The notes beneath the pieces were generated by a model. That model was given only the letters and a program-made list of their open reading frames with translations, was not told the DNA's origin and did not search any database. A stretch of 64,000 bases of DNA from a bacterium. GTDB taxonomy: Bacteria > Eisenbacteria > RBG-16-71-46 > CAIMUX01. Shown one piece after another: positions 55,571 to 64,000 of this stretch; within the stretch, counting starts at the first letter, position 1; every line of letters starts with the position of its first letter. The position numbers were made by a program, and so were the translations under genes. The stretch is from the NCBI GenBank assembly GCA_030431975.1, contig JAUIHP010000018.1, forward strand, positions 1-64,000, in the 5' to 3' direction.

Positions 55571-58500
55571 CTACTCCCCCCTTGAAACCACGACGAACTT
55601 CGCCAGTTCCGTCCGCTCGTCGATGCGCATACGGAGGAAGTACATCCCGGCGGCGACCCGCTCTCCACGCATGTTCTCGGCCTTCCATTGCCACTCGTGT
55701 ACGCCCGGATTCCGCCGTCCAACGAGATCTTCGCTGACGATACGACCCTGCGCATCATAGACCTCGAAGGCAATCCGGCTCTCGGTGCCCAAGGTGTAGG
55801 AAACACGCATGTCGGTCCGAACCGGATTCGGATAGAGGCTGACGAGCTTGTTCAACCAATCCGGAATATCGACCACGACGGGGTCGAGGTACAGGGATTC
55901 GCCCGAAACGCCGACCGCCTCGATCCAGTACCGATAGGTACCCGGATCCGGCCTTGGGGTCTCCTCGAAGACGTGGGGACCGGGACCGGAAAGAACATCG
56001 TCCGTCAACCGCACGACCTGGGTGGAAGGATTGTCGGCAGAACCCTGGTCCTGGACCTCGTTCACCGGTTCCCGGTAGACGTGGAATCCCAGCAGCTCAT
56101 GTCCCGGCTCGATGGCCCAGCGAATAATCAGGTCCTCGCCTTCCTGCGCGATCGGGTCGGCGGCCAGGTAGTCCACGGACTGGACCAGCGTCGGCGCCGT
56201 CAGCGGGACGGTGATCCACACCTCGGCGCTTCGGGCGGAAAGGTTCCCCGAGTCGTCGCGAGCGGCCACGGAATAGGCATAGGTCGCTCCCGGCTCGCCG
56301 GTCCGGTCCAGCCAGACCACGGATGAGAGGTGCTCGAGCAGAACGGACGGATCGGTCTGACCGATCTCGCGACGGTAGATCGCGTACCCGATGAGGTCTG
56401 CATCCGGGCTCGGCTGCCAATTGAGTCGGACTCCTTCGGCCACCGGCTCCGCCGTCACACCGGTCGGAACGGATGGCGGCGCGGTATCGGGAACGTCGGG
56501 AAGAGTCACCGCGATGACGTTCGAGAGCTCGGACTCGTTGTCGACCTCGTCATAGGCGCGAAGGGCGAAGAAGTAGGTCGCTCCCGGAACGCGGTCGGAC
56601 CAGGTGTAGGACTCGACGGCTCCGAAGGCCTTTGGCGCGTCGACGTCGGTCAACGCCTCGGCGTTGTTCCACGTGGCCTCGGTGATGGGATCGAACGACC
56701 ACCGCAGATCGTAGCGATCAGCCGATCCCGCTTCGTCGTCATCACCCGGGGCGAACCAGGTCAAACGCAGAGTCGAGGTGCCGAGGGCGTAGCCGGTCAG
56801 GCTCGAGACGCGGGACGGCGCCGTCACGTCCGGACCCGGATCATCCGGATCGTCCGGGTCATCCGGATCGTCGGGATCGTCCGGGTCATCCGGGTCGTCC
56901 GGATCATCGGGATCGTCCGGATCTTCTTCCGGCAGTGTCATTCCGAAGATGTTGTTCGAGATCGGCGAGAGGTTTCCGGTGGCGTCGATGGACCGAATGG
57001 CAATCCAGTACTCCTGATCCGGGACCAGTCCACTCAGAATCAGCTTCTCGGAAGAGCCCGGATTCTTGGCTCCCGAAAGATCGCGGACACCTTCCGTCTC
57101 GTTCCAGTTCGTGTCGTCGATCTCTTTGTTGGACCAGCGAAGTGCATAGCTGGCGACCGGTCCCGTCTCACCCAAGGGACGAAGATCCAAAGGAGCGGTC
57201 CAGGTCAGTTCGACTCCCGTCTGACGCCACTCGACGACAGAGAGATCCTGAATGGCTTCCGGACCGACCAGGTCTTCGACGAAAGGAACCTGTGCGAGGT
57301 TGGACCAACCGACGGGGCTGACGTTGCCCGCGTCGTCTTCGGCCACGAGCCCAAAGACGTAGACGTTGCCCGGGGTCAGAGCTTCCAGCGTCAGGTTTTC
57401 AGCCGTACCGGAAGGAGCCGGCTCACGTTCGATGACCACGACCTCGGCCGCGTCCCACGCGCCCTCAGCAGACGGGTCCGGAGGCGTGTCTTCGGTTCCA
57501 CTCAGCCGGCGCAGCCCGTAGGACGTGGCACGTCCCTCGTCGGCATCATCACCGGTTGCCGTCCACGTCAGCACTGCGGTCCAGGAATCGACCGCCTCCA
57601 AAGCGAGGTCGTCAATCTGGGACGGAGCTTCCGTATCGGGCTGCGGCGGAGGCGGCGGCTCATCTCCACCCGTCGTCGTGACCTCGATGACGTTCGAGAT
57701 GGGGCTCCAGTTTCCGACGGCGTCCTGACTCCGGACACCGCAGAAGTAGGTCGTTCCCTCTTCCAAACCGGCGATCGTCCAAACGACGCCCGAACCCGGC
57801 TCTTCCGGATCGGGAACGGCACCGGAGGAAGCATCATCCCACGTCTCTTCCGTGAGTTCCTGCTCTGCGTAGCGGAAGTCGTAGGCGACCACCGATCCGT
57901 CTCCGGTCGCACCTTCGGAGATCACGTCTTCCGGAGTCGTCCAACCGAACGTCACGGCCTGGTCGTCGATGAGAAGATCGGACAGGTCATCAATCGGGTT
58001 CGGCCCGGCCACGTCGGGCAGGTAGTCGGTGCGAATCCCGACCACGTTCGACATTTCCGACCAGTTTTCTGCGTTGTCGGCGGCCTTCAGCGCGAAGAAG
58101 TATTCCGTGCCGGAGTCGAGATTCTCCAGGCGGAAGGTCTCGGTCTGACCGGACTCGAGCGGATCGGACACGCCCTCGATCCGGGTTCCGAGGAGGAAGC
58201 TCGAAGGCGTGAAGATGAAGTCGGAAACCCGCAGGTCGTACTCGGCAGCCTGACCTTCGCTTCCGTCGGAACCAGTCGCGGTCCACTGCAACTCGATGTA
58301 ATCGACACCGCTCTCGACAATAGTGAGATCCGACACGGCGCTCGGCGGAGTTTCGTCTCCCTGCGGCGGCGGCGGCTCTTCGTCGAATGTCGTCGCGGTA
58401 GCTTCGTTGGACGGATCCGACCAGTTGTCAGCATCGTCACGGGAAACGATGTAGGCGTAGTAGGTCGTACTCGGATCCAATCCCTGCACCGCATAAGACT

Positions 58501-61500
58501 CGGCGAAGCCCGGATTGGCCGGAGTGCCCGGGTCGAGGACGAGTGCGGTCGGCGAAAGGTCGCCGTCGAACGGAGAGGTCTGGATCCAGATTTCGTAGGC
58601 GGCGACCGCGTCCCCGTCGTCGTCGGCCGGCGCGGTCCACGAAAGCTGAATCGCGTCATCGGCGGTACCAACGCCGGACAGGTCCTGAACGGCGTTGGGT
58701 CCTACCTCGTCCGGACTGGCCAGGAAGACTTCGAGAACATTGGCTACGCCGGAGGCATTCTCGACTTCGTCGTAAGCCCGGATGGCGAAGAAGATCGTCG
58801 TGTCGGCCGGAAGATCCTCGACCCAAAGCTCGTGCGCAGTTCCCGCGGAACCAGGATCCGGAGTTCCGCCGATCAGTTCGGCGGCGTCCCAGTTTTCTTC
58901 TTCGATCTGGACAAAGCTGCGTCGAAGTTCAAAGCGCGAGGCTGTGCCGGAAAGTCCGTCGTCCCCGGTCGCGGTCCAGCCGAGGTGAACCCGGTCGGCG
59001 CCGGCCTCGAGCTCGCTCAGATCGTCGATGGCCGCCGGCGGTACCGTGTCTTCCGGCGACGGAAGGGTCGTTCCGACGACGATGTTCGAAACCTCTGACC
59101 AGTTGTCAGAATCGTCGACCGTCTTCAGGGCGAAGTAGTACTCCTGCTCGAAGGCCAGGCCACCCACCATCATGACGTGGAGCGTTCCGGGATCTCCCGG
59201 AGTCGGCTCACCGACCGCCTGCGAGGCCGTCGAGAAGTTGGAGTCGTTGATGGGAGCCGTAGAGTAACGGAGATCGAACGCCGTGGCCTGTCCGCCGGAA
59301 TCGCCGTCATCACCCGGCGCCGTCCACTCCAGCGTCAACGTGGTCGGTCCCTCACCGCGCACCCAAAGGTCGTCCGTTTTGCTCGGCGGAATCTCGTCGT
59401 TGTTGACGATCTCCGTCGTGACCTGGGCAATGTTCGAGATCGCGCTGCTGTTGTTGGCGTCGTCCGTCACCTGCAGTGCGAAGTAATAGGTCGTTCCGCT
59501 GTTCAGACCGTTGACGTTGAGAAACTCCGAGGCGCCCGACGGCGAAGGAAGCGGCTCACCGAGTACCTTGGTTGCGGCGCCCCAGTTGCCGTCATGGATC
59601 GTCGACGTCGAGTAGCGCAGGTCGTAGCTCGAGGCCGTTCCGTCCAGTCCGTCGTCACCGACCGCCGTCCAGAGGACGCGAACGGCCGACGGTCCCAACG
59701 CCGTCGCGGACAGGTCGGAGACGGGAGCGGGCGAGGTTTCGTCGCCCTCGTCGGATCCGCCGTCGAGGAGAACGCTGAAGACGTACTGGGAATCTCGGGT
59801 GTCGCGGGGGAGGGCGCCCGCCGTGTTCAGCACTTCCGGATACGCTTCCTCGGCCGAAGTTTCGGTGATCGGCGGCGCGTCCATGCGCGTCGACGTGTTC
59901 CCCGAGGGATTGGACTCCGGCGGAAGTACGTTGCCGGCAACGTAGGCCGGGCCCGCATCCGGACTCACCACCACCGCGACGGACGGATCACTGAAGCCGC
60001 CCTCGATGAAGTAGTTCTTGACCAGATTGCCGCTGCCGCCGGCCGCGAAGTTGACGCTGAACTCAGAACGCCAGCCGTGCATGACGTTGTTGACGATGTC
60101 GACGTTCGTTGCGTTCTCACGGACCCGCGGGTTCTTCCGCTTGCCGAGAGCGAACAGATTGTGGTGAACGGTGACATTGTTGGAGCCCGACCGAATGAGC
60201 AGATTGTCGTTGGCGTCGGCCAGGATCGACCACTGCACGGTGACATCGTGAACGTTGTTGTTCAGCGAGATGTTCTCGTCACCCGGGTTCCGGAAGGAAC
60301 AGTGATCGATGACGATATTGTAGGCGCCGTCGTCGACCCGCAGATTGTCCGCGCCGCTTTCCGGTGCGTCTTCCAGTCGCAGGTGACGCAGGATGAGGTC
60401 GTGGGCGCCTTCCAGCTCCACGAGGTCGCCGCTCAAGCTCGGGGCCCCGGTCAGGGTGATCCCGTTGGTAGCCGTCGAACCATCGATGGTCAGATGGTGG
60501 GTGTCTATGACGAGCGTCGACTGCAGGGTGATGACGCCAGAGGCCGCGAAGCTGATGTTGCGGTTGCTCGATGAGACCGCGTCGCGAAGCGTGCCCGGTC
60601 CGGAATCACCGAGGCTGGTGACGACGAAGGGCGTGCCCCCAGAGCCACCGGCCGTCTCGGCGCCGTAACCTTCGAGGGCAAAGTCCGACCCGCCGCCGGC
60701 CGAGCCGGTCGTGCCGCCAGGCGAGTTCGAGACGTCACTTTCGTTACCGGCTTCGTCGGAAACCCGAACCGCGAAGAAGTAGGTCGTCTCGGGAAAGAGT
60801 CCACCCAACGTAAAACGCTCCTGCGATCCGGACGGACGCGGAAGCGGTTCGCCGAAGGCGGAGTTGGCGCCGTTCCAGTTGGAGGCGTTGATCGGCGAGG
60901 TCGAGTAACGCAGGTCATAGGACTGGGCCGTTCCGTCGTTTCCGTCGTCACCCACCGCTGTCCACGTGACCGTTGCAGAATTCGTGGTGACGCTCTCGAC
61001 GGCGAGAGTCGTGACCGTCGCCGGAGGTGTCTCGTCGGCCCCACCGCCGCCGCCCTCGGTTTGGCCGCTGGCCACATTGGAGAGCAGGGACCAATTCGGG
61101 ATCTCGTCCCCCACCTTCAGCGCGAAGTAGTAGGTCCGGCCCGGTGCCAGACCCTCTATCGTCATCGATTCAGATGCACCGCTGTTTCCCGGCGTCGGCT
61201 CGCCGGAAACCTGAATGGCCGAGAACCAGGTGTCCTCGGTGATGAAAGACGATGAGTAGCGGACATCGTAAGTGGATGCACGACCAGAGTTTCCATCGTC
61301 CCCGGTGGCGGTCCAGGTCAGAACGGCTGAATCTTCACCAGTGGACTGGACACTCAAGGTGGTGACGTCATCCGGCCGAGTCGTGTCCCCGGAGCTGCCG
61401 GAGGAGACGACCTGAAAGGATCCACCGTCTGCGGAATTGAAGACGAGCCCGCCGGCCAGGGACGGGACTTCGTTCTGATGGATCATCGATCCATCTTGAT

Positions 61501-61630
61501 ATACGTCATAGCTTTGGCCGGCCCGGACACCGAAGACGAAATGGTCGACGGCGAAGGCCGGTAGAGGCATGAGAAGGGTTGTGGAGATGACCAGGCCCAG
61601 GAGGATTCCAAGGGCAGGTTGACGGTCCAT
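55571..61630 (-). CDS. Giant secreted FnIII repeat protein with pectate-lyase-like beta-helix and FlgD-like C-terminus
   Basis: 2019 residues. Signal peptide (LGILLGLVISTTLLMPLPAFA). Twelve or thirteen FnIII-type units, each with a WTATGDDG-like core, flank a right-handed parallel beta-helix at ~317-640 (FVVTSLGDSGPGTLRDAV; VIDHCSFRNPGDENISL; HHNLFALGKRKNPRVREN; VNNVMHGWRSE), which matches pectate lyase family 1 including the conserved NPRVR Arg. A nine-fold Asp-Pro-Asp repeat links units near residue 1570. The last ~75 residues (LYPNPVRTDMRVSYTL ... GMYFLRMR) are a FlgD-like sorting-type domain. Likely a cell-surface polysaccharide-binding or -cleaving protein; first gene of the operon with the heparinase-like protein. 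Confidence 0.88.
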   Translation of the reverse strand: MDRQPALGILLGLVISTTLLMPLPAFAVDHFVFGVRAGQSYDVYQDGSMIHQNEVPSLAGGLVFNSADGGSFQVVSSGSSGDTTRPDDVTTLSVQSTGEDSAVLTWTATGDDGNSGRASTYDVRYSSSFITEDTWFSAIQVSGEPTPGNSGASESMTIEGLAPGRTYYFALKVGDEIPNWSLLSNVASGQTEGGGGGADETPPATVTTLAVESVTTNSATVTWTAVGDDGNDGTAQSYDLRYSTSPINASNWNGANSAFGEPLPRPSGSQERFTLGGLFPETTYFFAVRVSDEAGNESDVSNSPGGTTGSAGGGSDFALEGYGAETAGGSGGTPFVVTSLGDSGPGTLRDAVSSSNRNISFAASGVITLQSTLVIDTHHLTIDGSTATNGITLTGAPSLSGDLVELEGAHDLILRHLRLEDAPESGADNLRVDDGAYNIVIDHCSFRNPGDENISLNNNVHDVTVQWSILADANDNLLIRSGSNNVTVHHNLFALGKRKNPRVRENATNVDIVNNVMHGWRSEFSVNFAAGGSGNLVKNYFIEGGFSDPSVAVVVSPDAGPAYVAGNVLPPESNPSGNTSTRMDAPPITETSAEEAYPEVLNTAGALPRDTRDSQYVFSVLLDGGSDEGDETSPAPVSDLSATALGPSAVRVLWTAVGDDGLDGTASSYDLRYSTSTIHDGNWGAATKVLGEPLPSPSGASEFLNVNGLNSGTTYYFALQVTDDANNSSAISNIAQVTTEIVNNDEIPPSKTDDLWVRGEGPTTLTLEWTAPGDDGDSGGQATAFDLRYSTAPINDSNFSTASQAVGEPTPGDPGTLHVMMVGGLAFEQEYYFALKTVDDSDNWSEVSNIVVGTTLPSPEDTVPPAAIDDLSELEAGADRVHLGWTATGDDGLSGTASRFELRRSFVQIEEENWDAAELIGGTPDPGSAGTAHELWVEDLPADTTIFFAIRAYDEVENASGVANVLEVFLASPDEVGPNAVQDLSGVGTADDAIQLSWTAPADDDGDAVAAYEIWIQTSPFDGDLSPTALVLDPGTPANPGFAESYAVQGLDPSTTYYAYIVSRDDADNWSDPSNEATATTFDEEPPPPQGDETPPSAVSDLTIVESGVDYIELQWTATGSDGSEGQAAEYDLRVSDFIFTPSSFLLGTRIEGVSDPLESGQTETFRLENLDSGTEYFFALKAADNAENWSEMSNVVGIRTDYLPDVAGPNPIDDLSDLLIDDQAVTFGWTTPEDVISEGATGDGSVVAYDFRYAEQELTEETWDDASSGAVPDPEEPGSGVVWTIAGLEEGTTYFCGVRSQDAVGNWSPISNVIEVTTTGGDEPPPPPQPDTEAPSQIDDLALEAVDSWTAVLTWTATGDDADEGRATSYGLRRLSGTEDTPPDPSAEGAWDAAEVVVIEREPAPSGTAENLTLEALTPGNVYVFGLVAEDDAGNVSPVGWSNLAQVPFVEDLVGPEAIQDLSVVEWRQTGVELTWTAPLDLRPLGETGPVASYALRWSNKEIDDTNWNETEGVRDLSGAKNPGSSEKLILSGLVPDQEYWIAIRSIDATGNLSPISNNIFGMTLPEEDPDDPDDPDDPDDPDDPDDPDDPDDPDDPGPDVTAPSRVSSLTGYALGTSTLRLTWFAPGDDDEAGSADRYDLRWSFDPITEATWNNAEALTDVDAPKAFGAVESYTWSDRVPGATYFFALRAYDEVDNESELSNVIAVTLPDVPDTAPPSVPTGVTAEPVAEGVRLNWQPSPDADLIGYAIYRREIGQTDPSVLLEHLSSVVWLDRTGEPGATYAYSVAARDDSGNLSARSAEVWITVPLTAPTLVQSVDYLAADPIAQEGEDLIIRWAIEPGHELLGFHVYREPVNEVQDQGSADNPSTQVVRLTDDVLSGPGPHVFEETPRPDPGTYRYWIEAVGVSGESLYLDPVVVDIPDWLNKLVSLYPNPVRTDMRVSYTLGTESRIAFEVYDAQGRIVSEDLVGRRNPGVHEWQWKAENMRGERVAAGMYFLRMRIDERTELAKFVVVSRGE
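56834..56923 (-). repeat. 9-bp tandem repeat encoding (Asp-Pro-Asp)n linker
   Basis: Ten 9-bp units within the giant gene, consensus (minus strand) GAT-CCG-GAC, encode nine D-P-D units and a final D-P-G. Third-position differences between units (GAT/GAC, CCG/CCC) show the array is not newly made but is still repetitive enough for slippage. It links two FnIII units. Confidence 0.95.
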
Positions 61631-62032
61631 GACGGCTGCATTCCCCCGGTAGATTCGAGTCCCCTACACGCGTTCCCTTGCCTTCCCTGGCAAATCTCGC
61701 GCCATCCCTCGGAGATTCGAACCTGCAGACTGCCCCGTCCGCTGGAAGTTATCGTAACGACAGTCGATTGTCTCCACCGTTTCTTGTCGGAAAATGCCCA
61801 AAATGGCTATTTTCCGCCCGATGAATCGTTCGCCTTCCGGCCCGAAACGGCTGCGGAACGCAATTGCAGGTGAGCATAATGCGAGCAAAACGGCTGAAAT
61901 CTAGCCGCCGATGGATATGGGAAAACTTCCCCCCATTTCAGAATTCCTCGGAATCGGAAGACGATGGTTGCGCTCTGCGTCGGACCACGGGCGCCGTTGC
62001 CGTGTGGACTGGGGTGGAAGGTGGCCTGCAAC
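61631..62032. other. Intergenic region with a strong hairpin
   Basis: About 400 bp upstream of the giant gene and downstream of the M20 gene. A stem at 61788-61816 pairs CGGAAAATGCC with GGC-T-ATTTTCCG (11 bp, one bulged T) around loop CAAAAT, about 160 bp before the giant-gene start. No coding frame is convincing. Confidence 0.55.
61788..61816. promoter_or_regulatory. Strong inverted repeat upstream of the giant secreted-protein gene
   Basis: Arms CGGAAAAT (61788-61795) and ATTTTCCG (61809-61816), extended inside by GCC/GGC, loop CAAAAT. As DNA it is an operator-like palindrome; as RNA it is a stable hairpin in the leader of the giant gene. No T-run on either strand follows it closely, so it is not an evident terminator. 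Confidence 0.5.
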
Positions 62033-63250
62033 TCACCTGAGTCCGGGCGCCGTCGGGAATCGCTCCAGGTAACGCTCCTGGATCCGGAGGAAGATCTCGG
62101 CCCCGATGGGCATGACCCCCTCGTCGAAGTTGAAACGCGGATGATGGTGGGCGTAGTCCAATCCCTTTCCGGAATCGGCCGACCCGACGAAGAAGTAGCA
62201 GCCCGGCACCTCCCTTAGGAAGTAGGCCATGTCCTCGCCCGCCATGGAGACGTAATCGCGGCGCACGTTCTCTATCCCGACGACCTCGGCCGCAACATCG
62301 GCGACGAAGTCGCTCATCTGCGGATCGTTGAGCAGTGCCGGATAACCGTCGATGAACTCGACCGTGCCTTTCGCCCCCAGTGTTCTGGCGGTTCCCTCGA
62401 CCACCTCATGGAGTCGGGCGATCAGCTTCTGACGGACTTCGGGATCAAAGGTCCGAAGCGTTCCCCGCATCCGCACGCGCTCGGCAAGGATGTTGAAGTT
62501 GCTCCCTCCTTCGAAGGTGCCCACGGAGACGACGGCGGTCCGGGTGGGGTCGGTGTTACGGGAGACGAGTGTCTGCAACGCCACGACGATGTGTGCGCCG
62601 ACGACCACAGAGTCCACGGCCTCGTGTGGGTAGGCCCCGTGTCCCCCGCGACCCTCGACCAGAATCTCGAACTCGTCCGCAGCCGCCATGAACGGCCCCG
62701 ACGTCACGGCGACGGTTCCGGCCGGAAGTCCATTCCACAGGTGCAGTCCGAACGCCGCCTCGACGGAAGGGGACTCCAGCACCCCCTCCTCGATCATCGG
62801 CGCCGCACCACCCGGTCCTTCCTCCGCCGGCTGAAAGATGTACTTCACGTCGACCGGCGATCGGGAAGTCCCCTGGCACGATTCGAGCAGTGTGTGCAGA
62901 AGCAGCGACGTGTGCCCGTCGTGTCCGCAGGCATGCATCTTGTCGTCGACTAGCGACCGGTAGGGAACTTCGTTTTCCTCATGGACCGGCAGCGCATCCA
63001 TGTCCGCGCGGAAGAGAATGGTGCGATTCGATTCGGAAGTTCCGCGGACAACGGTAGCGATACCCGTCTTGGCGATCTCGGCCCGAAACTCGAGGCCCGC
63101 CTCGCGCAGCCGTTCCTGAACGCGGCCGGCTGTTCGGAACTCCTGAAAACCCAGTTCCGGATGCTGGTGGAGGTCGCGGCGCAACTCGACCATGGACGCA
63201 TAGCGGTCAGCCAACGGGGATCGGACGGGAAAGCTTTCGAAGGTGGCCAT
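62033..63250 (-). CDS. M20-family metal-dependent amidohydrolase (N-acyl-amino acid/peptide)
   Basis: 405 residues. Metal-binding motifs: FRADMDALPV, KMHACGHDGHTSLLL, FQPAEEGPGGA, a dimerisation domain with GRGGHGAYPHEAVDSVV, and a C-terminal RFNFDEGVMPIGAEIF. Such enzymes hydrolyse N-acyl amino acids, hippurate or aminoacyl amides; substrate is unknown. ATG 63250 has GGGGAG at 6 nt; an upstream TTG at 63256 is less likely because it abuts the SD. The gene is preceded by a ~187-nt structured leader with an intrinsic terminator. Confidence 0.95.
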   Translation of the reverse strand: MATFESFPVRSPLADRYASMVELRRDLHQHPELGFQEFRTAGRVQERLREAGLEFRAEIAKTGIATVVRGTSESNRTILFRADMDALPVHEENEVPYRSLVDDKMHACGHDGHTSLLLHTLLESCQGTSRSPVDVKYIFQPAEEGPGGAAPMIEEGVLESPSVEAAFGLHLWNGLPAGTVAVTSGPFMAAADEFEILVEGRGGHGAYPHEAVDSVVVGAHIVVALQTLVSRNTDPTRTAVVSVGTFEGGSNFNILAERVRMRGTLRTFDPEVRQKLIARLHEVVEGTARTLGAKGTVEFIDGYPALLNDPQMSDFVADVAAEVVGIENVRRDYVSMAGEDMAYFLREVPGCYFFVGSADSGKGLDYAHHHPRFNFDEGVMPIGAEIFLRIQERYLERFPTAPGLR

Positions 63251-63267
63251 ATACAACTCCCCATCTC

Positions 63268-63305
63268 AAAAACGAAAGCGGGCCGGCGTCGAGGCCGGCC
63301 CGCTT
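63268..63305 (-). terminator. Intrinsic terminator directly before the M20 SD
   Basis: A perfect 12-bp stem (63276-63287 with 63294-63305, loop of six) is followed on the minus strand by TTTCGTTTTT. It lies between the promoter-like sequence and the GGGGAG at 63262-63257, so it would stop transcripts that have not been rescued before they enter the gene. Confidence 0.85.
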
Positions 63306-63438
63306 CGGATAGTCGCCGGGTGTCATCGGTCGAGCGAGTCGCTCAGCCTGCCGGTTCCCCACTGGGGTCCGACCGGATCCACAGGCCAAAGAGCATAGAC
63401 GTCGCCAAATTCGCCTCGACCCGGCGTACCTGAAATCC
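63268..63438 (-). ncRNA. Candidate structured leader RNA (riboswitch/attenuator-like) of the M20 gene
   Basis: From a promoter-like TTGGAT-N16-TATACT (63472-63445) the transcript would start near 63437. Its predicted fold is a rod: GGAT/ATCC (63438-63435/63310-63307), CGCCGGGT/ACCCGGCG (63426-63419/63321-63314), CGAG/CTCG, GCTC/GAGC (63394-63391/63344-63341), GCCTG/CAGGC (63386-63382/63350-63346), CCGGT/ACCGG and CCCC/GGGG around loop AGT. It ends at an intrinsic terminator (63305-63268) 5 nt before the SD. A 5' strand, GCCGGGTCGAG (63425-63415), can instead pair with the terminator loop and 3' arm. I recognise no known riboswitch consensus. Confidence 0.5.
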
Positions 63439-63444
63439 GCCTTG

Positions 63445-63472
63445 AGTATACCCAGTTCTCCCGCGAATCCAA
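63445..63472 (-). promoter_or_regulatory. Sigma-70-like promoter of the M20 leader
   Basis: Minus-strand TTGGAT (63472-63467), 16-nt spacer, TATACT (63450-63445). The GGGTATACTCA containing the -10 also occurs at 10779-10789 before the ANTAR regulator gene. Confidence 0.5.
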
Positions 63473-63613
63473 AACGATTGAATGAAGCAACGCCCGGTTT
63501 CCTGTCCCCCGCGAGATCTGCGACTCGACGGTGCACGAGTGACCCGCGCGGCTTGCCGCGTCCACATCGATTTCGGCCGCGAAAGAACGGCGAATCGAGG
63601 ATAGTATCCAGTT

Positions 63614-64000
63614 ATGAAGAACGAGTCAGAGTTCCCGCGAATGACCGGACTCCCCGAGCCGCTTCTCCTCCGCCTCGACGAAGGCTGGGATCACCTGGAG
63701 GTGGGTGACGTCGAGGCTGCCGGTTGCATGGCGCGCGAGCTTCTCGACGAAACCGCCGGACATCCCGAGGTGCGTTTTCTTTTGGCTGCGGCGCTGCTCG
63801 AGTCCGGTTACCCGCGCGAGTCTTTGGCAGAACTCGAGGATTGCCGGGGCAAGGTCGAGGACGATCTTCTCCACCGCTACTACCTGGCTTCCGCCCACTA
63901 CGAAAACCTCGACATGGATGAAGCGGAACATCATTTCCGCAAGATCCTCGAGACGGAGCCGACGGCGCCGCCGCCCCACTACGGACTCGCACAGGTCCTC
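63614..64000 (+). CDS. TPR-repeat protein, 3' truncated by the window
   Basis: 129 codons, open to the right edge. The predicted protein (MKNESEFPRMTGLPEPLLLRL) has helical repeats: LDEGWDHLEVGDVEAAGCMAREL, RFLLAAALLESGYPRESLAEL and AEHHFRKILETEP, with TPR-like A-x-x-x-x-x-A-L spacing. Function unknown; TPR proteins mediate protein contacts. Divergent from the M20 gene across ~360 bp. The ATG at 63614 lacks a strong SD. Confidence 0.75.
   Translation, partial: MKNESEFPRMTGLPEPLLLRLDEGWDHLEVGDVEAAGCMARELLDETAGHPEVRFLLAAALLESGYPRESLAELEDCRGKVEDDLLHRYYLASAHYENLDMDEAEHHFRKILETEPTAPPPHYGLAQVL

Follow-up and report, generated by a model that had tools for sequence, protein, structure and literature searches.

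A rod-shaped RNA upstream of an M20 amidohydrolase gene is conserved in sequence and fold between two genera of one Candidatus Eisenbacteria family, and the order promoter-like site, rod, terminator, M20 gene is conserved with it. The RNA lies in the window, by which we mean the whole 64,000-nucleotide stretch analysed here. It is a real, undescribed RNA element, selectively maintained and of narrow distribution. We favour, at a probability of roughly 0.55, the reading that it forms the 5' leader of the M20 mRNA and acts as an attenuator. The riboswitch mechanism first proposed in a preliminary description of this DNA is not supported.

Locus anatomy and the rod fold

The whole element lies on the minus strand and reads, in order, promoter-like site, rod, terminator, Shine-Dalgarno sequence and M20 ATG (Table 1). 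Counted by hand, the promoter-like site matches the sigma-70 consensus at 8 of 12 positions and predicts a transcription start near 63438-63437; a promoter scan reported no promoter-like site at 63445..63472. A terminator scan of 61500-64000 found one terminator, that at 63268..63306, with a perfect 12-bp, GC-rich stem (AAGCGGGCCGGC/GCCGGCCCGCTT) and the loop CTCGAC. The 5 nt GAGAT separate its T-tract from the Shine-Dalgarno sequence. The preliminary description had the coordinates and letters of the promoter-like site, the P1 strands and the terminator all right, and its account of a perfect 12-bp terminator with a T-tract ending 5 nt before the Shine-Dalgarno sequence was confirmed. The distance from T-tract to ATG is 17 nt, which leaves no room for a separate M20 promoter after the terminator; on this anatomy M20 mRNA would have to arise by readthrough.

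Table 1 Features of the leader and the M20 gene in the window
Feature	Position	Strand	Basis or remark
Promoter-like site TTGGAT-N16-TATACT	63445..63472	-	Read directly from the letters; putative function
-35-like TTGGAT; -10-like TATACT; spacer 16	63472-63467; 63450-63445	-	Read directly
Conserved rod-shaped RNA body, about 113 nt	63314..63426	-	MFE and centroid folds agree
Outermost helix P1, CGCCGGGT / ACCCGGCG	63426-63419 / 63321-63314	-	Paired in the MFE fold
Apical part, most conserved, GGATCCGG-N5-CCCCAGTGGGGA	63356..63380	-	Invariant in both copies except N5
GATGAC, facing CGAGGCGA across the internal loop above helix P1	63322..63327	-	Invariant in both copies
Intrinsic terminator (stem-loop 63306-63275, T-tract 63272-63268)	63268..63306	-	Terminator scan
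Shine-Dalgarno GGGGAG	63257..63262	-	Read directly
M20 amidohydrolase/carboxypeptidase, 405 aa	62033..63250	-	Profile matches; ATG at 63250

That the leader precedes an M20 amidohydrolase, as first described, is borne out by matches of the product to PF01546 (E 5.8e-41), PF07687 and TIGR01891 (356.3 bits, above the cut-off of 153.75), and the association is kept in the related genome described below, G002, whose orthologue also backs the start codon by alignment. Against the CpsA model the product scored 369.5 bits, under the cut-off of 500. The divergent gene adjoining the leader (window 63614-64000, continuing to L079:14460, plus strand) encodes a protein of 281 aa that has TPR repeats and, C-terminally, the motif HEFGH, like that of zinc metallopeptidases. 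Directly downstream of M20 lies a 2019-aa protein (window 55571-61630, minus strand) in which reading by eye picked out numerous fibronectin-III-like repeats, a tract of DPDDPDD repeats, a stretch resembling a parallel beta-helix and, at the C terminus, a sorting-type domain.

The successive nested pairing noted from the letters is found as a rod in both the MFE and centroid folds, and the related copy gives the same rod. It consists of nested helices whose internal loops are asymmetric, small and mostly on the 5' side. Leader and terminator together have an MFE of -86.5 kcal/mol (z -3.97); leaving out the terminator brings z to just -1.89, a value equalled by 10 of 200 shuffles, so the single-sequence significance comes mostly from the terminator. 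By fold energy the leader body alone is weak evidence, and it is conservation in a second genus that shows the body to be beyond chance.

Conservation and distribution

BLAST of related genomes gave one true relative, at C637:548-703 of G002 (73% DNA identity, E 1.4e-11). This contig, JAGQHR010000449.1 of Candidatus Eisenbacteria HKST-UBA01, represents a different genus of the same family as the window genome. It carries the same order of promoter-like site, rod, terminator and orthologous M20. The promoter-like site, TTGGAC-N17-TAGACT, sits at the position matching that of the window, is the better of the two and is the only such site found within L080 380-900 (expected 0.0). A terminator hairpin with a T-tract occupies the same place, its stem letters largely different from those of the window, so that an intrinsic terminator stands between the conserved RNA and the gene in both copies. 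From this terminator to the M20 start is about 100 nt, as against 17 nt in the window, a gap into which a separate M20 promoter could fit.

The two M20 proteins are 63% identical; at third codon positions the figure is 48%, which means that DNA free of constraint has nearly saturated between the two genera. For the RNA body, identity comes to 68% in the MAFFT alignment and 74% in a structure-guided one, above the third-position rate (84/124, P 1e-5). When 40 kb of window sequence were searched against G002, the leader RNA was the only noncoding match, the others lying inside long reading frames. The order and orientation of RNA and M20 are kept between the two genera and no other flanking gene compared is common to both, a comparison that rests on a 4-kb contig.

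Folded on its own, the relative (L002:548-656) gives the same rod as the window copy. When the same substitutions were placed at random and the preserved pairs counted, the mean was 4.8 +/- 5.9 pairs, against 31 in the real relative, with 3 of 2000 randomisations as good; under structure-guided alignment only 1 of 2000 preserved pairs as well. It is only the preserved pairs that are unusual, the relative's MFE being unremarkable in this null (286/2000 as low). RNAalifold on the MAFFT alignment gave a weak signal (z -1.76; 49 of 1000 shuffles as good), in our opinion because MAFFT misplaces helix strands, and the substitution null was added for this reason. Structure-guided alignment left 30 of the 44 window pairs unchanged, with 2 changed on both sides, 3 on one side, 6 broken and 3 gapped. 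Identity is 82% at paired and 56% at unpaired columns of this alignment, which is itself biased towards structure. The invariant runs are CGCCGGG, CGAGGCGA, ATGCTC, GGATCCGG, CCCCAGTGGGGA, GATGAC and CCCGGC, and the apical part includes the internal loop GGAU and the triloop AGU, both invariant. All these comparisons are between two sequences, too few for a strict covariation test or a guess at a ligand.

Covariance models of the window structure (R1) and of the relative's structure (R2) were run on 47 genomes of the phylum, and R1 also on 385 relatives. Only the window genome and G002 scored, each with one copy and each with this M20. Weak matches at G001:C47, G006:C184, G008:C90, G008:C46, G007:C104 and G002:C482 (E 0.7-8) were put down to chance; three of them were aligned, and these fit poorly. 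Scanning 84,980 species genomes for the pattern gave 12 matches, of which only the G002 contig passes the covariance model, and no copy was found in the viral contigs, plasmids and phages searched. Rfam gave no match in the window at the gathering score and, at permissive thresholds, only chance matches to either copy, mostly on the terminator hairpin. The preliminary description had likewise recognised no riboswitch consensus in the sequence. By titles and abstracts, the literature held nothing relevant on riboswitches with M20 amidohydrolases or Eisenbacteria, and no paper found in that search mentions both Eisenbacteria and riboswitches.

Comparison of homologous M20 upstream regions, suggested in the preliminary description, had a divided outcome: the RNA is present in G002, and the M20 homologues of other families of the order (45-61% identical) have different upstream genes and lack it. 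In G001, a genus of the same family, neither the leader RNA nor a close M20 homologue occurs. In the other families one of two genes precedes the M20 homologue, identified by eye as a small conserved one that may be DUF2203-like or as a possible gene for thiamine-phosphate kinase (L042 and L044 versus L045-L047).

Antiterminator, 6S and leader-peptide readings

The preliminary description saw in GCCGGGTCGAG (63425-63415), which overlaps the 5' strand of P1, a complement of the terminator loop and 3' arm, and took the two pairings for the mutually exclusive states of a transcriptional switch. The complementarity to CTCGAC(G)CCGGC (63293-63282) is literally present, with 11 pairs and one bulge, at a strength expected by chance. 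Its duplex energy was equalled by 92 of 500 dinucleotide-shuffled leaders with the window terminator and by 205 of 500 with that of the relative; GC-rich words such as GCCGG make chance complementarity easy. Abolishing the terminator would cost 14.6 kcal/mol in the window and 16.8 kcal/mol in the relative. Shuffled leaders cost no more in 263/300 and 287/300 cases, respectively, so the real leaders are less prone than random ones to undo the terminator. The best terminator-free fold of the window does contain the antiterminator pairing, which speaks for a switch, but that of the relative is a wholly different global structure, and the partner segments, terminator loop and 3' arm, are those transcribed last. 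No alternative fold competing with the terminator was found in either copy, and no plausible coupling of the rod to the terminator. With complementarity at chance in both copies and a terminator costly to abolish, we reject the built-in antiterminator as a demonstrated feature. Two genomes in which the rod is conserved ahead of M20 are too small a sample to show an aptamer, and we regard a classical metabolite riboswitch built on exclusive P1 and antiterminator pairing as very unlikely.

6S RNA (RF00013) had been named as an alternative, and a divergent or second 6S RNA would share with the leader its length, its long imperfect rod and its own promoter-like site and terminator. The canonical 6S RNA of the window genome lies elsewhere, at C8:50909-51088 (L034; 59.1 bits to RF00013, E 8e-11), neither leader copy gives a hit to the 6S model at E<=10, and the folds of both lack the large central bubble typical of 6S. 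Identity with 6S is rejected on the first two of these grounds, and a further 6S RNA at this site is scarcely credible. Among relatives of the order, six have a 6S RNA above the cut-off; the best match in G001, at 35.7 bits, is below it.

Attenuation through a leader peptide would use a 17-codon ORF (ATGCTC...) inside the rod, and the invariance of ATGCTC and the 3-nt length of the indel between the copies are in its favour. Substitutions in this one short ATG frame fall 4/4/2 by codon position, without third-position bias, and the frame of the relative has no stop before the terminator, so the leader does not look coding; nor was a good Shine-Dalgarno sequence seen by eye. We reject this candidate on the substitution pattern, in which coding selection is not seen, and consider the mechanism highly improbable.

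Proposed readthrough control of M20

We propose that transcription would begin near 63437 and that the RNA would fold to the rod of about 113 nt, most transcripts then probably stopping at the intrinsic terminator 17 nt ahead of the M20 start codon. M20 would be made only when RNA polymerase reads through, and the leader would thereby serve as an attenuator. The conserved rod would most likely decide readthrough through binding, and its partner could be a protein, a metabolite or the RNA polymerase. This cis-acting leader is favoured by the lack of room for a promoter in the window and by the linkage of RNA and M20 across rearranged flanks; against it stand the gap of about 100 nt in G002, the absence of a fold competing with the terminator, a total of only two known copies and a synteny comparison on a 4-kb contig.

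The same RNA could instead be the product of a free-standing, trans-acting sRNA gene that merely lies upstream of M20, the latter being expressed by leaky readthrough or, in G002, from its own promoter. Insulation of rod from terminator and the G002 gap make this possible, and we hold it as a tentative second choice. In its favour, the terminator is a strong one that does not depend on the rod, the cost of abolishing it being at least that in 263/300 and 287/300 shuffled leaders; the length and rod shape fit an sRNA; and the spacing to M20 differs between the copies. It is harder to reconcile with the order and orientation of RNA and M20 being the only conserved local synteny, with an M20 in the window that would have no promoter of its own, and with an RNA found once per genome in only two genomes, both with this M20.

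The attenuator-type leader resembles a known group, the structured 5' leaders of terminator type (attenuators, among them transcriptional riboswitches and leaders that respond to proteins), in its promoter-like site, its folded conserved RNA, its terminator just before the Shine-Dalgarno sequence and, in two copies, its association with one gene. It differs from them in that no antiterminator alternative could be detected, the fold is a single rod and has no multi-way junction, no known class matches it, and only two genomes are known to carry it. The put RNA of phage HK022 and EAR of Bacillus are cis-acting antitermination RNAs; they too place a structured RNA ahead of a terminator and do without classical mutually exclusive pairing, and the general Rfam scan, through which alone they were compared, gave no match. 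More speculatively, and in our view doubtfully, the rod could be the first representative of a new class of cis-acting RNAs restricted to a single Candidatus Eisenbacteria family. RNAs of this class would control transcription through the terminator with no base pairs competing for it; they would either bind a small molecule, for which an N-acyl amino acid or a peptide might be a candidate, or act on RNA polymerase.

To our knowledge the Candidatus Eisenbacteria phylum is known only from uncultured genomes. With two copies and no ligand hypothesis, the element is a lead more than a discovery. If the RNA controls the amidohydrolase, attenuation in which no antiterminator is obvious could be studied on it as a small test case.
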